Source of the DNA: Pelosinus fermentans DSM 17108
GTDB lineage: Bacteria; Bacillota; Negativicutes; DSM-13327
Reading direction: 5' to 3'
Assembly: GCF_000271485.2 (NCBI RefSeq)
Contig: NZ_AKVN02000001.1
Span: 1,554,001 to 1,618,000 of the forward strand
Length of the DNA stretch: 64,000 bases
The notes beneath the pieces are model-generated. The model had not been told where the DNA came from, did not search any database, and saw only the letters and a list, made by a program, of their open reading frames with translations. How positions within the stretch are numbered: position 1 is the stretch's first letter; each line of letters opens with the position of its first letter. The position numbers were made by a program, and so were the translations under genes. This document shows, piece by piece, positions 5,714-21,058 of this stretch.

Positions 5714-5732
5714 GATAATGATAATTATTATT
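5714..5732 (+). promoter_or_regulatory. Fur box upstream of PepSY gene
   Basis: GATAATGATAATTATTATT matches 17 of 19 positions of the Fur consensus and stands 132 bases before the PepSY membrane protein, supporting iron-repressed expression. Confidence 0.7.
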
Positions 5733-5863: not shown

Positions 5864-7156
5864 ATGAAATATTGGTATAAAATCCACAAATGGGCGAGTT
5901 TGATCTGTGCACTTTTTCTGTTTAGTATGTGTGCAAGCGCCTTACCCCTGATTTTTGGCCGGGAAATAACGGCGTTTAATCAGGTTAGTGTACCTACGGC
6001 TTCAGAAGCATCCTTAGCGGATGTGACAAAGCTATCTGTGGGCAAGCAGGCGGAAGCAGTGCTGGAAGGTTACCCCGACTACAATCTGCGTGCTGTCTAT
6101 CTGGATCATGAAAAGCATATTAACGGCTTTTCCTTGCGGTCTCAAGATAAGGGCTATGAGTATATTCGTCTAGATTTGAACACAGCCCGATTCATAAAAC
6201 GGTCTAATGAACAAGTGAGGTATGAGGTGATTCCGAAATTCATGGAATTTGCCTATCGGATGCATGTTGATATGTATCTCGGGTCATTCGGCAGGAACTT
6301 GTTCGGAGGAATGTGCGGATTGAGCGTTGTAGCTTTAATCTCAGGCATCTGGCTGTATGCACCCTTTATGAAAAACATCTCCTTTGGGACGATTCGTTCT
6401 TCCCATCGGCGCATCTATTGGATGGACTGGCATAAATTACTGGGGATTGCCACACTTTCCTGGACAGTATTATTAAGTGTAAGCGGCTTTGTTTTTATAT
6501 TTGCAGGTCCGATTCATAATGCTTGGAATGAAAGTATACGCAAAGAATTCTTGATTGAGTATCAAGACAAGCCTTTTTCTGTCCAGCGTATTTCTATTGA
6601 TGAGGCAATCAAAACGGCCCAAGCCGCTTTGCCTGACCGCAGAATAACGGGGATTGAATTGCCCCAGGAAGACGGAAAAATGCGCTGGCATTATACAGTT
6701 CGCACACAGGGGGAAGGTTTGGCTGCACACTTCAATAAGCCTGTCTGGGTTGATGCGTCTACGGGAAAGGTTACTGCCGTCATTCAGCAGCCTTGGTATA
6801 TCCAGACGCTTTCTATGGCTAATCCAATTCACTTTAGCAATCATGACACCTTACCGCTGAAAATCTTATGGTTTATTACGGATGCCTTGACCTGCATTAT
6901 GATCATCACTGGCATTTATGCCTGGTTTGTCAAATTCAGGTCGAACAAAAGCAATGGGGCGAATAAGCAGCAGGCGAAAGCGATTCCTCCAGTACGGCAG
7001 TCGTCCAGGCAAATTTGGCTGCTGCCAGTGGTCATTATAGTGATTACGTTGTTCGGAATTATCGCGCCTCTGGCTGGAAAGGAATGGAGTGCCATATCGG
7101 CTGTTGCTCTGGCAATACCCCTTGTACTCACCGCATATTACTGGCTGCGCAGTTAA
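5864..7156 (+). CDS. PepSY-domain membrane protein (iron-regulated, PiuB-like)
   Basis: Inner-membrane protein of 430 residues of the PepSY-associated TM family, often found beside TonB siderophore receptors and proposed to reduce or release iron from imported siderophores. It has an N-terminal span (about 9-31), an extracytoplasmic PepSY stretch, spans near 145-165 and 190-215 with a typical WMDWHKLLGIATLSW segment, a second PepSY region (ISIDEAIKTAQAALPDRRI), a span near 335-355 and two closing spans. Conserved His residues in the spans (MHVDMYLG, DWHKLLG, PIHFSNHD) may bind haem or metal. The start follows GGAGGAG. A Fur box lies upstream, consistent with the local iron theme. Confidence 0.85.
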   Translation: MKYWYKIHKWASLICALFLFSMCASALPLIFGREITAFNQVSVPTASEASLADVTKLSVGKQAEAVLEGYPDYNLRAVYLDHEKHINGFSLRSQDKGYEYIRLDLNTARFIKRSNEQVRYEVIPKFMEFAYRMHVDMYLGSFGRNLFGGMCGLSVVALISGIWLYAPFMKNISFGTIRSSHRRIYWMDWHKLLGIATLSWTVLLSVSGFVFIFAGPIHNAWNESIRKEFLIEYQDKPFSVQRISIDEAIKTAQAALPDRRITGIELPQEDGKMRWHYTVRTQGEGLAAHFNKPVWVDASTGKVTAVIQQPWYIQTLSMANPIHFSNHDTLPLKILWFITDALTCIMIITGIYAWFVKFRSNKSNGANKQQAKAIPPVRQSSRQIWLLPVVIIVITLFGIIAPLAGKEWSAISAVALAIPLVLTAYYWLRS

Positions 7157-12660: not shown

Positions 12661-12699
12661 GTGGACAAAAGAGGTTTTGGTGCAGAAGGAGTAGACAGT

Positions 12700-13035
12700 A
12701 TGAATAGAGAAATCCAAGAGTTTAAGGCTGATTTTTTTAAAGCATTATCTCACCCATTGCGAATTAATATTTTAGAGATCCTATGTGATGGCGATAAGAA
12801 CGTCAATGAGCTGCAGTCACTATGTGGTGTTGGAGGGGCCGTTATTTCCCAGCAATTAGCGATTCTTCGCAATAAAAACATTGTTAAAACCCGCAAAGAT
12901 GGAACACGAGTATCGTATTCACTGCAAGATCCCATGATTCAAGAGCTGCTGGTGATAGCACGTCAAATTTTTAATAATCATCTGGTTAATACCATCAGTA
13001 AGTTTGATCGTCTTCAGATGGAATCAAAGCCTTAA
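12700..13035 (+). CDS. ArsR/SmtB-family regulator
   Basis: Winged-helix repressor of 111 residues from the ATG at 12700 (GAAGGAG 8 bases upstream); an upstream GTG at 12661 is less likely. It shows the family order: KALSHPLRINILEILCDGDKNV, recognition helix GAVISQQLAILRNKNIV, wing KTRKDGTRVSYSL. Cysteines 29 and 42 are placed differently from the ArsR CVC motif and from BigR/SqrR, so the ligand (metal, arsenite, sulfide) is open. It is divergent from the SulP transporter and upstream of an MFS carrier; either could be the target. Confidence 0.87.
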   Translation: MNREIQEFKADFFKALSHPLRINILEILCDGDKNVNELQSLCGVGGAVISQQLAILRNKNIVKTRKDGTRVSYSLQDPMIQELLVIARQIFNNHLVNTISKFDRLQMESKP

Positions 13036-13098
13036 CGTTTAAAATTAGTACGTAATAAGGGGTAAGTTCGTTGTATAATAGGAAGCGAGGCAAGAAAG

Positions 13099-13129
13099 AA
13101 TCCTGCAAAGTACTTTACTTTGCGGGATT
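13099..13129 (+). terminator. Terminator after arsR-like gene
   Basis: AATCCTGCAAAG and CTTTGCGGGATT arms; no strong T-run. One of several window terminators using the CCTGCAAAG stem. Confidence 0.6.
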
Positions 13130-13207
13130 GAATATTTCATAGTAAAGAGGGGGCTATCCTTCGTTTTATTTCATATAAGATATCACGTTGACTAAAAGGG
13201 GTTATTC

Positions 13208-14383
13208 ATGGCTAATTCATTTCAGATTTTTAAGAACCAACAATTTCAAAGTATTGCAATTTCTCATTTCAATACCATTCTTGGTACTTCCTTATTGGTT
13301 CCTGTATTACCAGTTTTTTTACACAATAGCGGATTCAGTGAGACGCAAATTGGGATTATTATGGGCGCTACGGCAATGAGTTCTCTCATTATAAGGCCGT
13401 GGATCGGCTTTCAAGTGGATACTAAAGGCAGTCGCCCAGTGATTCTCCTTGGACAAATTGTACTTATTTTATCAACTGTTGGTTACTGGTGGGCGACAAG
13501 TTTTTTGGGCTTTTTTGTTTTACGATTCCTTTACGGTATTGGGCAGGCCTTTTATGGTACAGGAGCAGTTACCTTTGCCAGCAGTATCGGATCAGGGGAA
13601 AGTAATTCCAACTCGATTGCCATGTATACGTTAACTACCATGTGTGGTCTTGGTCTTAGCATGAGCATGGCTCAGGTAGCTTTTGATAATTTTGGATTCT
13701 ATGCACTTGTTGGTATTAGTGTTATTCTAATTGGGATTGCTTTTAATGTGATGAAGTGGCGCTCTCAGCCAATTCAGCTAGCTGCGAGAAATGTTGTTCG
13801 AGCACCATTTATGGATGTACTGAAATCCAATGTTGTTTGTGCGACGACTCTTTCTCAGTTTGCAGCAAGTTTTGCTTTTAGTGCAGCTCTAACCTTTATC
13901 CCACTTGCTTCCATTGATAAGGGTGTTGATTTTTACTCTCTTTTCTTTATTGCTTTTGCCATATCCGTGATTTTTTCCCGTGTTTTTGTACAAAAGATAG
14001 GTCATATCTTAGGGCTCTTAAATGCGACACTATATGCGAGTATTACAATGTTGCTCGGTATCGTATTGCTATTGATTACTATTTCGCCTATGATACTGGT
14101 TCTTTCAGGACTTCTGTTTGGGCTAGGATTTGGTGTTGTTTATCCCACCTTGGTTTTACTTTTAGTAGAGCGAATCCAGCAAACGAATCGAGGTACTGCT
14201 CTAGGTATTATGATTGCAGCTGGTGATATTGGAACGGCTCTTTCTGCCGCCATATTGGGCGGTGTAGCTGAGCATCTGGGATATTTCGTTTTATTTTCAG
14301 CGACAGCGTTACTATTGGCAATATGTACCTACTATTTTTATTCAATATTGGTTAGAAGTGATGACAAGATTAGTGATAATTGA
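13208..14383 (+). CDS. MFS transporter
   Basis: Major facilitator superfamily carrier of 391 residues with 12 predicted spans. The loop between spans 2 and 3 reads GFQVDTKGSRPVILLGQ, the G-x-x-x-D-x-x-G-R-R/K-like MFS signature, and span 5 contains GLGLSMSMAQ. It resembles YfcJ/ArsJ-like and multidrug-type exporters; no substrate can be assigned. The start ATG follows AAAAGGGG. It lies downstream of the ArsR regulator but is separated by a terminator-like hairpin and about 170 bases, so it may be its own transcript. Confidence 0.87.
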   Translation: MANSFQIFKNQQFQSIAISHFNTILGTSLLVPVLPVFLHNSGFSETQIGIIMGATAMSSLIIRPWIGFQVDTKGSRPVILLGQIVLILSTVGYWWATSFLGFFVLRFLYGIGQAFYGTGAVTFASSIGSGESNSNSIAMYTLTTMCGLGLSMSMAQVAFDNFGFYALVGISVILIGIAFNVMKWRSQPIQLAARNVVRAPFMDVLKSNVVCATTLSQFAASFAFSAALTFIPLASIDKGVDFYSLFFIAFAISVIFSRVFVQKIGHILGLLNATLYASITMLLGIVLLLITISPMILVLSGLLFGLGFGVVYPTLVLLLVERIQQTNRGTALGIMIAAGDIGTALSAAILGGVAEHLGYFVLFSATALLLAICTYYFYSILVRSDDKISDN

Positions 14384-14477: not shown

Positions 14478-14855
14478 ATGAATTTTTTGAAATTTGGTGC
14501 CAATTTATTCAGCAAAAATTCTCTCTTGTTATTGTTGGCCGGTGGTATTGTTCTAGCTTTGCTGTCGGATCGCCGCAATCTACGGTCTGGTGCAGTGAAG
14601 GTGACTAAAGGGGCTTTAATTGCCAAAGACGAAGTGAAAAATGCAGCAGCAAAAGTGAGTGCCAGAGCTTCTGATTTTGTAGAAGAAGCGCGTCAAGTTC
14701 GAGGTGTTTCACCTTGTCGTGGTGCAGTGGCTAGAGAAAAAGGGCACCGGATAGCCGTTGCTACGACTGCCAAGATATTGACATTGAAAGAAGCGGCACA
14801 AGCTGAATTTAAAAGTATTGTAGATGAGGCGAAAAGACGTCGTGCCATTCGCTAA
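14478..14855 (+). CDS. Single-span helical protein, PacL-like
   Basis: Protein of 125 residues from the ATG at 14478, which is 8 bases after AGGAGGTG; the ATG at 14472 is too close. One membrane span (about 15-29: LLLLLAGGIVLALLS) is followed by a basic, Ala-rich amphipathic helix. Residues 39-72 (AVKVTKGALIAK...DFVEEAR) align without gaps to residues 146-179 of the protein at 16917-17549. The layout, a short membrane anchor then an AVK..KG......E........D.V.EAR helix, resembles the DUF1490/PacL proteins that scaffold mycobacterial P-ATPases. Two P-ATPase genes lie within 4 kb, so a partner role is plausible but inferred. Confidence 0.65.
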   Translation: MNFLKFGANLFSKNSLLLLLAGGIVLALLSDRRNLRSGAVKVTKGALIAKDEVKNAAAKVSARASDFVEEARQVRGVSPCRGAVAREKGHRIAVATTAKILTLKEAAQAEFKSIVDEAKRRRAIR

Positions 14856-14900
14856 AGTAGATCTTATATGTTCTTGAGGGCAGCGAAATAATGAAGTAAC

Positions 14901-14966
14901 TGCAGAAGCACAGAATATGCTGAGAGATTTTTATTTGATCTTTTCTCAGTATTCTGTGCTTCTGCG
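14901..14966. terminator. Long hairpin terminator
   Basis: GCAGAAGCACAGAATA and TATTCTGTGCTTCTGC with inner CTGAGA/TCTCAG arms, between the converging PacL-like and pseudo-ATPase genes. Works for both strands. Confidence 0.8.
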
Positions 14967-14998
14967 TATTTTATTATGTTTTTTATAATCCTAGCGAT

Positions 14999-16513
14999 TC
15001 AAAATGGTTTCTTACCAGACAACGAGCATTTTGAGTTCATAATGATTGCCAATGTACTGATATTCAGCAGTAATCCTGCAGTTATTGGAGTAATGAGTGA
15101 GGCAGCAGCTAGTGCCACACCAGCTATATTGAAGACCGTAGCAAAGGATACATTTTGACGAATGACCTTGTTCATATATCTGCTAAGATAGATGATTTCA
15201 GCCACTTTTCGAGGATCATCATTCGCAATCACGATATCAGCGGTTTCAATTGCCTGAGCTGTTCCCTTTCTGCCCATAGCGATGGCAACATCACTGGCAG
15301 CAAAGGCGGGAGAGTCATTTATCCCGTCTCCGATCATTACAATCTTCTTTCCTAGGGCTTGCAAATCGTTAATCATTTTTACTATATCGTCAGGAAGCAT
15401 AGCATGCCGGTTAGCAGTACGATCGCCCTTTATCACACGAATATCCTTGATACCTAAAGAATGCAGCTGGTCTATTCCTGTATAGCATTCATGTTCAAAT
15501 AATACTGTATCAACGTCTCCTAGACGTTCTAGAACATCAATCTGCTTTATAAAAACTCCTTTCTCCGCTGCTTGTCTGACTGCAGAATGCATTGCTGCGT
15601 CTTTGGATAGGGAAATCGCAGCAGGGCACCCAGCAAGTAATATGGCGAGGCTGCGCATAAAGTTTCTTGTTAGAACAAAGTTAATTCCTGAAATCGCCAA
15701 GGAATACCATATGGTTTTTTCAGTCAATAAAGAGGATGAAGGTTTTTTTTCTTCATTTTTATGAGCGGAGATGTTATTTTTCACTTCTGTATCTTTGGGA
15801 CTGAGGTTCTCTTTTTCTTCATACGGGCTGTTTTGTGCCTGCAGCTGTTTTCTCATAAGAAGATTCGATATGCTTTTATGGGAATTTTCCTGCGCTGCTG
15901 TACCAAGCCAATAGGTTAACTGGACTAGCCAGAGCACGGACAATCCAGTAATACTTTCTCGTATGGTTAGCAGTAGTAAGGTAGGCAGGAACAAAAGCAA
16001 TTCATAGTTCATATTGTGTTTTTTTGCCACTGTTTCAAAACGGTTACGTAAGATGGGGTAGCCAGCGATTAAAGTTGCAAGAGCAGCAAAACTGAAAATT
16101 TGTGGGGAAGAAGACAGGGTAGATTTGCCTGCAAAAAAGCATTTGGTGATTAGTCCTGCTAGAATGAGACCTGTTGCTAAGGCGTAGGTCCCCGGTGATT
16201 TGATAAGTTCTGGAGGATGGTTACAGCTCATTTTTATGCTCTTATGCATAGTGGACTTTTGTATCGAATACCTTTGCTCTATTGCAGAAATCAATGACTG
16301 AATTTCAGTTAGACAAGTATGAGCTGGATTAAAATAAATAAGCGCTCGGCCTGTTAATGGATTTGCTGTTACGGAATAAATATATTTTTCTTTTACTAAT
16401 CTTGTTGCTATATAGTGAGCAAAAGAAGGGCTTTGGAGAAGTGATTTAATGGATATTCGTAACCGTCCTGGCAATAAATTGTATTGGCTTGTTGTAAGAC
16501 TAGCTGCTGCCAA
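14999..16513 (-). CDS. Degenerate heavy-metal P-type ATPase (pseudo-ATPase)
   Basis: 504 residues with the build of a P1B ATPase but without its catalytic parts. Present are an N-terminal HMA_2-like domain (about 1-80, LLPGRLRISIKSLL), membrane spans (about 108-205), and the C-terminal half of the P domain with GDGIND at 395-400 and the last spans. Missing are the actuator domain with its TGE loop, replaced by a 40-residue hydrophilic linker (about 223-262), and the phosphorylation motif DKTGT with the whole nucleotide-binding domain: LGDVDTVLF is followed by EHECYTG and then by the late P-domain IKDIRVIKGD. The metal-site motif CPC is GCPAA (295-299). The frame is fully open with a TTG start after AAAGGAGG. 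It may be a regulatory pseudoenzyme or a slowly decaying gene; it cannot pump. Confidence 0.85.
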   Translation of the reverse strand: MAAASLTTSQYNLLPGRLRISIKSLLQSPSFAHYIATRLVKEKYIYSVTANPLTGRALIYFNPAHTCLTEIQSLISAIEQRYSIQKSTMHKSIKMSCNHPPELIKSPGTYALATGLILAGLITKCFFAGKSTLSSSPQIFSFAALATLIAGYPILRNRFETVAKKHNMNYELLLFLPTLLLLTIRESITGLSVLWLVQLTYWLGTAAQENSHKSISNLLMRKQLQAQNSPYEEKENLSPKDTEVKNNISAHKNEEKKPSSSLLTEKTIWYSLAISGINFVLTRNFMRSLAILLAGCPAAISLSKDAAMHSAVRQAAEKGVFIKQIDVLERLGDVDTVLFEHECYTGIDQLHSLGIKDIRVIKGDRTANRHAMLPDDIVKMINDLQALGKKIVMIGDGINDSPAFAASDVAIAMGRKGTAQAIETADIVIANDDPRKVAEIIYLSRYMNKVIRQNVSFATVFNIAGVALAAASLITPITAGLLLNISTLAIIMNSKCSLSGKKPF

Positions 16514-16603
16514 TGAAAAGCGTCCTCCTTTTGGATTAAAATACTTTTTTGGAAAAACAACCAGTTATAGCCATAAACAGACAAAGGATGATGGAGCGTG
16601 AAA

Positions 16604-16640
16604 GAATCAACAGCAAGGAATGATTCCCTGCTGTTAATGT
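16604..16640 (-). terminator. Hairpin between small gene and pseudo-ATPase
   Basis: AACAGCAAGGAAT and ATTCCCTGCTGTT arms. T-run on the minus strand is weak, so it may be an attenuator or mRNA end barrier inside the operon. Confidence 0.4.
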
Positions 16641-16658
16641 AAATAAATGTGCCGCTGG

Positions 16659-16895
16659 CTAAAAAAGTTTTAGACGTGTCCAGGAGATACCAGCAAGTAA
16701 ATTGTCTTTCGATTCTTTACTTGTTTTCTTGATATAACCGAAAAACTGACCCAGGAATTCTTCCCAAATGGTAACTACTTCTCCCTTTATTTCTGGTGAG
16801 TGTCGTCTTAGTTCAATACTCATATCAATTGCTTCATGCAGTTCACGATTTGCATTTGTGATTTTCTGGCGTAACATTTCAATCGTAATAGCCAC
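16659..16895 (-). CDS. Small helical protein of unknown function
   Basis: 78-residue protein with a GTG start 5 bases after AGGAGGAACAA. No family is recognised. It is mostly helical, with an N-terminal amphipathic helix (TIEMLRQKITNANRELHEAID), a middle acidic part and a basic C terminus (SWTRLKLF). No membrane span is predicted. It follows the ferritin-like/PacL-like gene by 21 bases and precedes the pseudo-ATPase by 145 bases on the same strand, so it belongs to the metal cluster by position only. Confidence 0.55.
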   Translation of the reverse strand: MAITIEMLRQKITNANRELHEAIDMSIELRRHSPEIKGEVVTIWEEFLGQFFGYIKKTSKESKDNLLAGISWTRLKLF

Positions 16896-16916
16896 TTGTT
16901 CCTCCTGATATATGGA

Positions 16917-17549
16917 TTAGTTAGGATCAGCTTTGGTGGTATCGAGTGTTTCTTCACTAGTTTCTTCTAGATCTTCATCGACCTCATCAAGCGAGTCCTT
17001 AAAACGCTCAAATTGAGCTTCGCTTACCAGATCTTCAATGTCTTCCCGTACACCGCTGAAAACTCCCTGTGCCTGCTCTGTTAATCCGATTACACCTTGC
17101 ACTGCTTTCACAGCTAAGGGACGAAGCTTTTCTCTAACACTCGGCATCAAAGCGGCTGCTACAACAACAGCTCCAATCCAAAAGGTTACATTATGCCCAG
17201 TACGCATTTTAATTTCGTGATTAAAGCAGCGTTTTCTTCTAGTTAAGCCATTCATTCCCGGTCCTGTTTCTACTAAGTCTGTTAGTTCTGCCAATTCCAG
17301 CAGTTCTTTACGTTCCTTGCGGATCATCTGCATCAATGCTTTACGTGCATAGGGATCGGTAACTGTGTTTAATTTCTGTTCATATATACGTATGGCGGCT
17401 AATTTCGCCTCAAAGACTTGTTCAAGCCCCAAGGTCGTCTCCTCACAGCAAGTTTCCATAGCTCGCGCACGCAGGAGCTGCCCTCTGCTTTGTTTTACTT
17501 TAGACTTTATTTCATATTCGTTATATGATCCTGTTTCTATATCGGACAT
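16917..17549 (-). CDS. Ferritin-like helix pair fused to PacL-like membrane segment
   Basis: 210-residue protein in three parts. Residues about 38-92 form two helices (LEQVFEAKLAAIRIYEQKL, then DPYARKALMQMIRKERKELLELAEL) resembling a ferritin/rubrerythrin half-domain, though the usual E-x-x-H pair is incomplete. Residues 121-137 are a membrane span. Residues 138-180 (VREKLRPLAVKAVQGV...EDLVSEAQ) match the helix of the 125-residue protein at 14478-14855. The last 25 residues are strongly acidic (DEVDEDLEETSEE), a potential metal-collecting tail. It heads a minus-strand operon that ends in the pseudo-ATPase, and is divergent from a Fur-boxed gene. A metal-handling scaffold is inferred. Confidence 0.65.
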   Translation of the reverse strand: MSDIETGSYNEYEIKSKVKQSRGQLLRARAMETCCEETTLGLEQVFEAKLAAIRIYEQKLNTVTDPYARKALMQMIRKERKELLELAELTDLVETGPGMNGLTRRKRCFNHEIKMRTGHNVTFWIGAVVVAAALMPSVREKLRPLAVKAVQGVIGLTEQAQGVFSGVREDIEDLVSEAQFERFKDSLDEVDEDLEETSEETLDTTKADPN

Positions 17550-17693
17550 TATAACCCTGCCTTTCCAAAATTATGCGATGTAATCATTAGTATTGTTCCC
17601 ATGTTTATCCATGTTATATACGTTTTTTCATAAGATTTTTTTGATATATTATATTGACTGGGTATAATTTTCTGTAGTATAATCAATAATAGT

Positions 17694-17712
17694 GATAATG
17701 ATAATTGCTATC
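17694..17712 (+). promoter_or_regulatory. Fur box before unknown gene
   Basis: GATAATGATAATTGCTATC matches 16 of 19 Fur consensus positions. It overlaps the region just upstream of the AGGAGG site of the next gene and lies in the divergent gap with the minus-strand metal cluster. Confidence 0.6.
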
Positions 17713-17727
17713 ATCAGGAGGCGGATT

Positions 17728-18360
17728 ATGCCTATGTCAATATATATAAAACCAATTGAAGCATTACAGCTTGAATGTGCAAACGATATACGGGGGGAAT
17801 TTTGTCAGATACGTTCACGAATTTCTTCTTTAGAAATTCATAAATTGGCGGATTCTTTGTTTTGCCAAAATTCTCTTGCATGGCCTGCAGTTTTGTTAGA
17901 GCTGCAGAAAGGAAGAATGTTAGATCGGCTCCTTAATAAGCTAAATGGAAAAGTGAAAGCCCATGGTTTTTCATACGAGAGAAATTTAGCATTAAAAGGA
18001 CCTTTTCCCGCCCTTTCTCTCAGGTCATTACTGCCTGCAGTTCATGAACATCGCTCTGCATTACGAGCTACCCGCTGTGTTGAATTCTTGGGCAATAAAG
18101 CTTGCAGTTATTCTTTGAAATCAGTCACGAAAGGTATATTTCCTTTTCAGGTCGATGTAGCAACCTTAGCCATGGAAACCTTAGGGTGCTCCAGCAAACA
18201 GCAAATGAAATCAGCATTGCTTGACCTCTCTGAACGGATTAAGGGATGTATTTTGAATTTCCTCTATGATTGGGAGAACTTAATCATGAAGCAAATTCGT
18301 GAACAGCTGTTAACCGTTAAGCAAAATTCCTATTTGTCGATTACAGAAGCAGCAGTATAA
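17728..18360 (+). CDS. Unknown cysteine-containing protein in metal cluster
   Basis: 210 residues from the ATG at 17728, chosen because CAGGAGGCGG ends a few bases before it; the longer frame from 17692 would run through the Fur box. No family is recognised. It is soluble, basic, mostly helical, with scattered cysteines (LECANDIRGEFC near residue 16-26, LFCQ, RCVEFLGNKACSY, LGCSS, GCIL), several of which could bind metal. The Fur box immediately upstream predicts iron-repressed expression. A terminator follows, so the P-ATPase 330 bases downstream is probably transcribed separately. Confidence 0.65.
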   Translation: MPMSIYIKPIEALQLECANDIRGEFCQIRSRISSLEIHKLADSLFCQNSLAWPAVLLELQKGRMLDRLLNKLNGKVKAHGFSYERNLALKGPFPALSLRSLLPAVHEHRSALRATRCVEFLGNKACSYSLKSVTKGIFPFQVDVATLAMETLGCSSKQQMKSALLDLSERIKGCILNFLYDWENLIMKQIREQLLTVKQNSYLSITEAAV

Positions 18361-18418
18361 TAAAAAGTTGTATTCCATATAATACATTCTAGTGGGTGAT
18401 GATCCTGCTAGACACTCT

Positions 18419-18444
18419 AAAATCCCAGTGTCTGGGATTTTTTT
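18419..18444 (+). terminator. Terminator
   Basis: AAATCCCAG, TGT, CTGGGATTT followed by TTTTT: classic intrinsic terminator after the unknown Fur-boxed gene. Confidence 0.88.
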
Positions 18445-18471
18445 GCGTTTATTAGAGGATCGTTCTTTTCT

Positions 18472-18640
18472 TGTAGTATAAGAATTTATAAGTTTAGGGG
18501 AACGTTAAACACAGAGGGCACAGAGTTCGCAGAGAGCACAGAGATTTTTAACTTTATCTATTTTTTCTCCGTGTTCTCTGCGCCTCTGTGGTTCAGTTTA
18601 CTTTCTATGTTTTAAAATACACGTAATGTTTTTCTTGTGC
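18472..18640. repeat. Long hairpin intergenic repeat, copy 2
   Basis: Left flank ATAAGAATTTATAAGTTTAG, arms ACAGAGGGCACAGAG and CTCTGCGCCTCTGTGG, right flank TTTTAAAATACACGTAATG. Nearly identical over about 120 bases to the copy at 32.4 kb. It fills the gap before the P-ATPase gene. Confidence 0.88.
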
Positions 18641-18689
18641 TGAGAGCGACTTGGTCATCGGATAAATACCTAAAAGGGGGAAACGTTGT

Positions 18690-20909
18690 TTGGCTGCACC
18701 ATATCTGCAAATTGTTCACAAAATACCTGGGCGTATTCGTATATATCATTCTAGAATAAAACAGAATCCTAAGTTTGCGTCACAGCTTGAAGTACTTTTG
18801 AGGAAGCAAAAAGGGATTCAAGAATGTAGCGCAAATCCTAAGTCGGGTAAGATCTTGATTCAATACAATCAGGCTATGACTTCTGAAGGCGTTTTATGGT
18901 CCTTTTTGCAACAGTACATCAAACAGGATTCTAAGCCCCAGATTTTAAAAAGGCAGAAGGCAAAACCTTTTGAAGTAGAGGATGTGTCCATTCCTACCCA
19001 AATTGCTTTAGTGGCTATTGGCGGTTTAACATTGCTTTATCATCTGTTTCGTTATCTGTTTCGTCCAGGACCTCTTTCCGTTAATTTGTTGAGTCTAACC
19101 AGTTTGGTGACATTAATTACGGCTTTTCCCATATTACGCAGTGGTATCGAAAATCTTTTTCTGCGCCGGGTTTTAAATAATGAGATTTTGATTGGAACGG
19201 CCATTATTTTGTCGGTATTGTTAAGAGAAGGGGCTACCGGCTTAGTGGTTGTATGGCTGGTGAACCTCAGCACCTTAATCGAAACCCTTACACTGGATCG
19301 ATCACGCCGTACGATTCGGAGTATGCTGGAAGGCAATCAAAAAGACGCCTGGATTGTTGTAAATGGGCAGGAAGTCATTATACCCATTTCTCAACTAAAG
19401 CAAGAAGACATCGTATCCATAAAACTTGGCAGCAAAATTCCGGTAGACGGAATCGTTATAAACGGTGAGGCGGTAGTCAATCAAGCAGCATTAACAGGAG
19501 AGCCTGTACCTGTGCACAAGCAAGTTGGTGATAGGGTATTGGCTGGTTCCACAATTGAACAGGGGACATTGTATGTTAAGGCAGAGCAAGTGGGGGATCA
19601 AACATCCGTTGCCCGTGTGATACATCTTGTTGAAGAGGCGGCTCATTCTAAAGCTCCCATACAAAAAATGGCAGATGCCTATTCTGCTCGTCTCATCCCA
19701 AGTTCATTTCTTTTGGCATTGCTGGTGTTTCTGCTAACAGGGGATATCAGAAGAACGATGACTATTTTGATTGTTGCTTGCCCCTGCGCGGCAGGACTAG
19801 CAACGCCTACTGCTCTTAGCGCAGCAATTGGGAATGCTGCCAGTCGGGGGATTTTAGTGAAAGGCGGCCGTTATCTAGAGGAAGCAGGAAAAATAAATTT
19901 TTTACTATTTGATAAAACGGGTACGCTGACAGAAGGAAAACCTGCCGTTGCTAACGTCATCCCGATTCATAAAGGATATGATACCAATTCTATTTTAGCC
20001 TTAGCTGCCGGGGCAGAGGCGAATGCAAATCATCCACTGGCAAATGCAATTAAAGAAGCTGCAAAAGAGCAAGGAATTGATTTACCCTGTATTCCTGACA
20101 GTGAAATGGCAATTGGTCGGGGTGTGAGGGCCACGATTGATGGCACGGTTGTTCACGTTGGAAATTTCTCATACTTAAGTCAGATGGGCATAAAAATTCC
20201 TCCACGTATTCCTTTTGCCATGCAAAACAAGGCTGAAAGTGCAACGTTAGTATACGTAGCTAGTGGAATGGCTCTTATTGGAGTCATTGTGATCGTAGAC
20301 TCTCTTCGCCCAAATGCAGAGAAGGCTATTCGCAGTATTAGAGAAGAGGGGATTACAAACATTGGAATTATCTCTGGAGATGCGGATACAGGGGTAAAAG
20401 AGATTGCTGATCTTTTAAGATTGGAGAAGTTTTGGACTAATATGCTCCCACAGGATAAATTTAATATAATAAAATCCTTGCAGGAAGAGGGATATGTAGT
20501 GGGGATGGTCGGAGATGGAATTAATGACTCTCCATCCTTAGCTCTTGCCAATGTTGGCATTGCTATGGGGGTAGGTGGGGCCGATGCGGCGATTGAAACA
20601 GCTGGTATTGTTCTGAGAGAGGATAATCCAGAAAAAATTGTGGAAATCATTCGCCTTGGTAAGAAATCCTTACAGATTATCAGGCAGAATTTTCTTTTTG
20701 CTATTGGGGCAAATATCATTGGATTAGGGCTTGGTTCTGCGAAATTAATTTCACCATTTATCGCAGCTGTTTTGCACAATGCAAGTACCCTGGCAGTTGT
20801 AATGAACTCCACACGGCTTCTTTCCTACTCTCCCCAGCAGCCTGGCCCAGAGACTGTCCTTTCTCCCGCCAATCAGAAAAAGTATGAGCTGCCCTATAAA
20901 AAAGAATAA
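18690..20909 (+). CDS. P1B-type heavy-metal-transporting ATPase
   Basis: Inner-membrane metal efflux pump of 739 residues. Order: HMA_2-like N-terminal domain without CxxC (1-80), spans (about 105-200), actuator domain with TGEPV at 269-273, metal-site CPC at 364-366, phosphorylation motif DKTGT at 408-412, nucleotide-binding domain with HP motif (ANHPLANAI), GDGIND near 608-613 and the last spans. All catalytic parts are intact. The CPC motif with an N-terminal domain lacking CxxC resembles the CtpC-like group for Mn/Zn-type ions rather than copper; this is inference. The TTG start is 9 bases after AAGGGGG; the start MAA and the TTG codon are shared with the pseudo-ATPase at 14999-16513, its clear paralogue. 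Confidence 0.93.
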   Translation: MAAPYLQIVHKIPGRIRIYHSRIKQNPKFASQLEVLLRKQKGIQECSANPKSGKILIQYNQAMTSEGVLWSFLQQYIKQDSKPQILKRQKAKPFEVEDVSIPTQIALVAIGGLTLLYHLFRYLFRPGPLSVNLLSLTSLVTLITAFPILRSGIENLFLRRVLNNEILIGTAIILSVLLREGATGLVVVWLVNLSTLIETLTLDRSRRTIRSMLEGNQKDAWIVVNGQEVIIPISQLKQEDIVSIKLGSKIPVDGIVINGEAVVNQAALTGEPVPVHKQVGDRVLAGSTIEQGTLYVKAEQVGDQTSVARVIHLVEEAAHSKAPIQKMADAYSARLIPSSFLLALLVFLLTGDIRRTMTILIVACPCAAGLATPTALSAAIGNAASRGILVKGGRYLEEAGKINFLLFDKTGTLTEGKPAVANVIPIHKGYDTNSILALAAGAEANANHPLANAIKEAAKEQGIDLPCIPDSEMAIGRGVRATIDGTVVHVGNFSYLSQMGIKIPPRIPFAMQNKAESATLVYVASGMALIGVIVIVDSLRPNAEKAIRSIREEGITNIGIISGDADTGVKEIADLLRLEKFWTNMLPQDKFNIIKSLQEEGYVVGMVGDGINDSPSLALANVGIAMGVGGADAAIETAGIVLREDNPEKIVEIIRLGKKSLQIIRQNFLFAIGANIIGLGLGSAKLISPFIAAVLHNASTLAVVMNSTRLLSYSPQQPGPETVLSPANQKKYELPYKKE

Positions 20910-20911
20910 AA

Positions 20912-21058
20912 AATAATAATGAACCGCGAAGACGCGGAGAATTGCAAAGACACGAAGGAGTATTATAGATTTTCAAACTTCGTGTTCTTCGTAATCTTCG
21001 CGTCTTCGCGGTTCAAATGTTTTATTTTTTAGGATGCATTAGCATTTTTCTTACAATA
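20912..21058. repeat. Long hairpin intergenic repeat, copy 3
   Basis: Arms GAACCGCGAAGACGCGGAG and CTTCGCGTCTTCGCGGTTC, right flank TTTATTTTTTAGGATGCATTAGC. It uses the GCGAAGAC arm variant and starts immediately after the P-ATPase gene, where it may act as a terminator-like structure. Confidence 0.85.

Follow-up and report, generated by a model that had tools for sequence, protein, structure and literature searches.

The window analyzed here, a 64,000-nucleotide stretch (positions 1554001-1618000 of its contig) of the 5.0-Mb genome of Pelosinus fermentans DSM 17108, carries a locus that combines an intact metal pump with a catalytically dead relative, the pseudo-ATPase, two PacL-like small proteins, scafA and scafB, and a conserved protein of 78 amino acids (aa). 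From sequence comparisons, we judge the chances to be about even that the locus specifies a Negativicute counterpart of the PacL/CtpC-type metal-efflux platform, in which the dead pump would serve as a non-catalytic membrane or docking subunit. More tentatively, and with somewhat less confidence, we propose that the protein belongs to a dedicated clade of pseudo-P-type ATPases that would have arisen from CtpC-like pumps with scaffold partners, lost all catalytic domains repeatedly and come to form, in metal platforms organized by scaffolds, an obligate membrane hub with the two PacL-like proteins and the 78-aa component; in Pelosinus, this hub would have outlasted a fused pump that was lost.

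The pseudo-ATPase (14999..16513, reverse strand) is encoded by an open frame of 504 codons with a TTG start. It consists of an HMA_2-like N-terminal domain (Pfam match with E 5e-6, below the cut-off), eight predicted membrane helices and a remnant of the P-domain that keeps the GDGIND motif. The A-domain with its TGE motif and the nucleotide domain are absent, and the corresponding regions are gone in all five orthologues. Of the remaining functional sites, FDKTGT has become FEH, CPC has become GCPAA and the HN of the last helix has become LN. Because the aspartate, the TGE motif and the nucleotide domain are missing, the protein is unable to form an aspartyl-phosphate; we accordingly rejected it as a catalytic P1B ATPase, the CPx and HN ligands having disappeared along with these elements. 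An initial annotation, made from the sequence alone, had already described a gutted P-ATPase in an open 504-codon frame, and its account of the motifs lost and kept is borne out. The predicted model of the protein (predicted local distance difference test score, pLDDT, 76.7; predicted template-modeling score 0.63) aligns with ZntA (4umv) over 312 residues with a Z of 22.5 and a root-mean-square deviation of 4.8 Å, and indicates that its membrane domain is an eight-helix P1B membrane fold. This predicted fold of membrane domain and P-domain remnant is common to KdpB, ZntA and CopA, all catalytic enzymes with solved structures, from which the pseudo-ATPase differs in having no phosphorylation site, A-domain or nucleotide domain.

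The initial annotation regarded this protein as a gutted paralogue of the pump next to it. Instead, it corresponds to the N-terminal half of a widespread fusion protein minus the P2A half: after the five orthologues, its next-best matches are the N-terminal halves of proteins of 1349-1793 aa in other Negativicutes. These fusions end in a P2A ATPase that has TGE, DKTGT and GDGxND; in one congener (G006), this C-terminal half scores above the cut-off for PMR1-type calcium pumps. At the fusion loci, the scafB gene is followed by the giant gene on the same strand and then by a convergent scafA gene. We tabulated the motifs of 27 degenerate halves from 26 Negativicutes genomes, which are spread over ten families. 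CPC and HN are lost in 27/27, TGE in all except G054 and DKTGT in 14; the motifs PGRLRI and RESITGL and the N-ST of the last helix are nearly invariant among them. Mapped onto a membrane-core tree, loss of DKTGT is most parsimoniously explained by six changes, at least four of which are forced by well-supported branches. Stripping down to HMA_2 plus membrane helices occurred separately in G048, G306, the Sporomusa genomes G310/G312 and Pelosinus. In a wider tree, the degenerate clade is nested inside the CtpC-like pumps with support of 96/84; as this tree has long branches, the evidence for descent from such pumps is moderate. The repeated stripping suggests that the pump shell is a useful building block rather than a dying gene.

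The closest relatives of the window pseudo-ATPase are a free-standing 438-aa protein from another family (G306; support 93/87) and the G316 fusion. The congeneric fusions G005 and G006 were rejected as its sisters or orthologues (approximately unbiased test, p 9e-7). The G306 locus has the same order as the window, namely scafA, pseudo-ATPase, scafB, a gene of the type found at 17728..18360 and the pump, with identities of 40-65%; in G316, the fusion adjoins scafB, and a gene of the 17728..18360 type and the pump lie nearby. These arrangements make it most likely that the ancestral state was a fusion with a pump in its vicinity, and that the P2A half was lost once or twice on the branch toward Pelosinus and G306.

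The family shows further variation. Sporomusa (G310, G312) encodes each half in a gene of its own, with a 16-base overlap between the two. In two Pelosinus genomes, the fusion (L028, 7930-13074; L029, 1446-6665) has no sister relationship with the window lineage, which looks as though the ATPase of the cassette had been exchanged or had come in from another family. A genome matching Sporomusa malonica has, near the first pseudo-ATPase, a second copy of 508 aa that is differently gutted (L086, 5539-7065). The fusion of G400 retains CPC and DKTGT in its N-terminal half and occurs with a 511-aa scafB-like protein (L136, 3047-4582 and 4258-9168)—possibly an early-stage form. A search of plasmids for the giant fusions was dominated by ordinary ATPases, with no double-length protein among the matches listed.

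The two small proteins at the locus are related to each other. ScafA (14478..14855, forward strand; 125 aa) has a single membrane span followed by a helix rich in Ala, Glu and Lys, an architecture it has in common with its PacL homologs. ScafB (16917..17549, reverse strand; 210 aa) is composed of an N-terminal helical hairpin, a membrane span, a helix homologous to that of scafA and an acidic tail, and has 42 invariant columns across 14 sequences. A profile-profile comparison of the two families with hhalign yielded a probability of 97% and E 3e-11 over 63 columns, which confirms and widens the 34-residue block on which the initial annotation had based their homology. Its further link to PacL and DUF1490 held as a distant homology, together with the presence of pump neighbors in other Bacillota, and failed as a matter of formal membership: eight of 16 scafA members match DUF1490 (best E 1.9e-5; the window scafA has no match) and ten of 14 scafB members match DUF5132 (best E 3e-4), in each case below the gathering cut-off. 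With hhalign, the scafA profile also recovers a DUF1490 protein of Pseudonocardia autotrophica (E 6e-6, probability 85, 61 columns). The designation PacL-like is thus supported by these comparisons as a statement of relation and probable function, not of membership. Whole-Pfam scans at E up to 0.1 gave no match of either family to DUF6110, the presence of that model in the library not having been separately checked. The N-terminal part of scafB, for which the initial annotation suggested ferritin-like helices, has only sub-threshold matches to DUF2383 and bacterioferritin; its model (pLDDT 58) is too weak to assign a fold, and the structural matches of the hairpin are generic. Searches of solved structures returned no convincing relatives of scafA or scafB, and plasmid searches gave no match for scafA and four chance matches for scafB.

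A third conserved component, overlooked in the initial annotation, is the 78-aa protein encoded between scafB and the pseudo-ATPase (16659..16895, reverse strand). It belongs to no Pfam family, and has 19 invariant residues among 16 sequences and a characteristic C-terminal stretch, WEEFLGQFFGYIKxxSKESKDNLLAGISWxRLKLF. This gene and scafB are the constant companions of the degenerate half in Negativicutes, each occurring in 25 of the 26 carriers, as against only eight in which the pump adjoins it. Full-length scafB is found in none of the 354 other genomes (Fisher p 3e-38, shared ancestry ignored), and the 78-aa gene occurs additionally in G303, beside a scafB fragment. Outside Negativicutes, where our family map covers a sample of 388 Bacillota genomes, scafA- or scafB-like genes adjoin intact CtpC-like pumps both without a fusion (G608, G467, G529, G463, G673) and with one (G496, G577). 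The 78-aa gene likewise adjoins a pump or fusion at nine of the sampled loci and, in several loci without a fusion protein, sits next to an intact CtpC-like pump. Two other Bacillota genomes have a further pairing of pump and degenerate pump: a second P1B-like frame of 719-720 aa, with DKTGT kept and TGE and CPC lost, follows the intact CtpC-like pump and the scaffold genes (L139, 1258-3420; L140, 4594-6753).

The intact pump of the window (18690..20909, forward strand; 739 aa) was correctly recognized from the outset as a P1B ATPase: besides an HMA_2 domain it has the full set of TGE, CPC, DKTGT, HP, GDGIND and HN motifs and scores 544 bits against TIGR01525 (cut-off 346). CPC in M4 and HN in M6 constitute the CtpC-like (P1B6-like) signature. 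The pump is 36% identical over 718 residues to the DUF1490-partnered ATPase of Pseudonocardia autotrophica, which has the same CPC/HN signature; the ATPase of this DUF1490-CtpC pair is also the sole plasmid match (of 72,556) to the N-terminal 241 residues of a degenerate half.

Several lines of evidence indicate that the pseudo-ATPase is maintained by selection. Open-frame orthologues occur in five of eight Pelosinus genomes, with identities of 91, 89, 84 and 80%. Among these five, the synonymous divergence (dS) reaches 0.6, and the frames are still open and the indels comprise whole codons. We simulated neutral evolution over a total silent length of 0.59, taking approximate branch lengths from the pairwise dS values; the five tips accumulated a mean of 26 stops, and none of 2000 runs was stop-free. 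The pairwise ratio of nonsynonymous to synonymous divergence (dN/dS) is 0.22-0.43 for the pseudo-ATPase, 0.09-0.17 for the pump and 0.02-0.15 for scafB. By segment, the pseudo-ATPase has values of 0.12 for the last helices, 0.17 for the first helices, 0.24 for HMA_2 and 0.51 for the stump of the A-domain. In the fusions of its relatives, the N-terminal halves (0.11-0.25) always evolve faster than the C-terminal halves (0.08-0.14); the free-standing protein is therefore only mildly faster than functional fusions. Recent decay, a possibility that the initial annotation had itself raised, can be dismissed, as the open frames in five genomes, dN/dS and the simulation exclude a recent pseudogene, and a relative in another family is found in the same gene order.

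We envisage that the pseudo-ATPase itself would pump nothing and would instead act as a membrane-embedded docking subunit, with the HMA_2 domain and the eight helices holding the scaffold proteins, and would thereby stabilize or tune the active pump of the platform. In most relatives, the P2A half of the fusion would be that active pump; in Pelosinus and G306, which have lost it, the role would most likely fall to the neighboring P1B pump. In the mycobacterial system, CtpC is stabilized by PacL1 within clusters in the membrane, PacL1 binding the first 85 residues of the pump (PMC9374683). The region matching this PacL1-contacted domain, plus the membrane domain and little else, is what the pseudo-ATPase keeps, as several lineages do independently. 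A docking and stabilizing role in a PacL-like platform is the simplest interpretation, and we infer that the pseudo-ATPase may bind, regulate or scaffold the adjacent pump.

Certain observations weigh against this proposal. The pseudo-ATPase has a dN/dS two to three times as high as the pump. GDGxND is kept in the Pelosinus copies though useless for phosphorylation, and the residues adjacent to it drift, a pattern that would also be expected if the P-domain remnant were slowly decaying. The window scafA ends in EAKRRRAIR without a metal-binding tail, acidic or His-containing tails being carried by its fusion-associated relatives, and the PacL relation as a whole scores below the Pfam cut-offs. 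Furthermore, as the P1B pump adjoins only a minority of the family members (see above), the pseudo-ATPase cannot be generally dependent on it.

The last point, the fact that most Negativicutes carriers have the degenerate half fused to a P2A ATPase and the overlapping separate halves of Sporomusa all favor an alternative in which the pseudo-ATPase works with the scaffolds and serves in trans a stand-alone P2A-type ATPase encoded at another place in the genome, as the fused form would in cis, rather than the adjacent P1B pump. We consider this rather unlikely, but worth taking seriously. In the window genome, the lost P2A half has left no orthologue; the P2A proteins present are 46-49% identical to it and are not its orthologues, because they also occur in congeners that retain the fusion. 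Moreover, in each of the two lineages in which the pseudo-ATPase is free-standing and the P2A half is missing, the P1B pump is part of the five-gene block. Much less probable is that in Pelosinus the pseudo-ATPase is a translated but functionless relic of the fusion protein in slow decay: the missing P2A half and catalytic motifs, a dN/dS above that of its neighbors and the variable residues beside GDGxND are what such a relic would display, but the absence of any stop in five genomes against the neutral expectation, the whole-codon indels, the concentration of constraint in the membrane helices and the equal reduction in G306, G310/G312, G048 and G610 speak against it. We give equally little credence to a metal sensor or passive ion pathway that would bind an ion, or let it leak through, independently of ATP by means of the retained HMA_2-like domain and eight helices, given that the membrane metal ligands CPC and HN are gone in every one of the relatives tabulated.

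The docking-subunit proposal can be set against two known systems. In the PacL1-CtpC effluxosome of Mycobacterium tuberculosis, a CtpC-like pump with CPC and HN is likewise associated with small scaffold proteins with a single span and an Ala/Glu-rich helix. The window differs in having two scaffold paralogues that fall below the DUF1490 cut-off, with scafA devoid of the metal-binding tail, in the addition of the 78-aa protein and the pseudo-ATPase, and in a control site that is Fur-like and not zinc-type. The second system is FUPA24 (TCDB 3.A.3.24), which includes the mycobacterial CtpH and CtpI and which the relatives of the pseudo-ATPase resemble in layout: they too are double-length, with a motif-less type I-like N-terminal half and an intact type II C-terminal half. 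Chan et al. (2010) reportedly described the FUPA24 proteins as fusions of type I and type II ATPases with function kept in the type II half only. CtpH/CtpI-type ATPases have a large N-terminal segment and their motifs in the C-terminal region (PMC3573892), and CtpH and CtpI have been called uncharacterized (PMC10654040). The double length is seen in G005, G006 and others and not in the 504-aa window protein, whose lineage has no type II half and in which the dead half stands alone; an association with scaffold genes, present here, is undescribed for FUPA24 in the literature that we found.

Pseudo-enzymes are well known among kinases. Our literature searches returned no description of a catalytically dead P-type ATPase that is free-standing and under selection, and a search for Pelosinus together with P-type ATPases gave nothing relevant. 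Within the reach of these searches, what is new is that a dead half stands alone under selection, has been stripped recurrently, is strictly co-inherited with PacL-like and 78-aa genes and originated within CtpC-like pumps. The locus bears on the purpose of the dead N-terminal half in fusions of the FUPA24/CtpH-CtpI type—Pelosinus separates this half from its usual partner, so that it can be deleted on its own—and on whether PacL-type effluxosomes occur beyond Actinobacteria.

The pump forms a module with the gene at 17728..18360 (forward strand), which codes for an uncharacterized protein of about 210 aa and starts with an ATG at 17728 behind AGGAGG. The eight Negativicutes carriers in which an intact pump was detected are exactly those with this gene. 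Upstream of the module (17654..17712, forward strand), a consensus promoter, TTGACT-18-TATAAT, is directly followed by a Fur-box-like inverted repeat with a perfect match (17694-17712); promoter and site are kept in 8/8 module-carrying genomes from three families. These predicted sites suggest that the pump may be under iron control. The window contains ten Fur-box-like matches against 1.8 expected, several of which overlap or represent one site on both strands. The motif also occurs at 2278-2302 and 5714-5732, before genes that, from a reading of their translations, code for a TonB-dependent receptor (46-2244) and a PepSY-type protein (5864-7156).

On either side of the pump gene, reading of the sequence reveals intergenic elements rich in inverted repeats, at 18486-18600 (cacagagggcacagag...) and 20922-21015 (gaaccgcgaagacgcggag...). 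Directly before scafA, the window encodes an ArsR-family regulator and a major facilitator superfamily transporter (12661-14383), in an order common to the four other Pelosinus genomes of this lineage.

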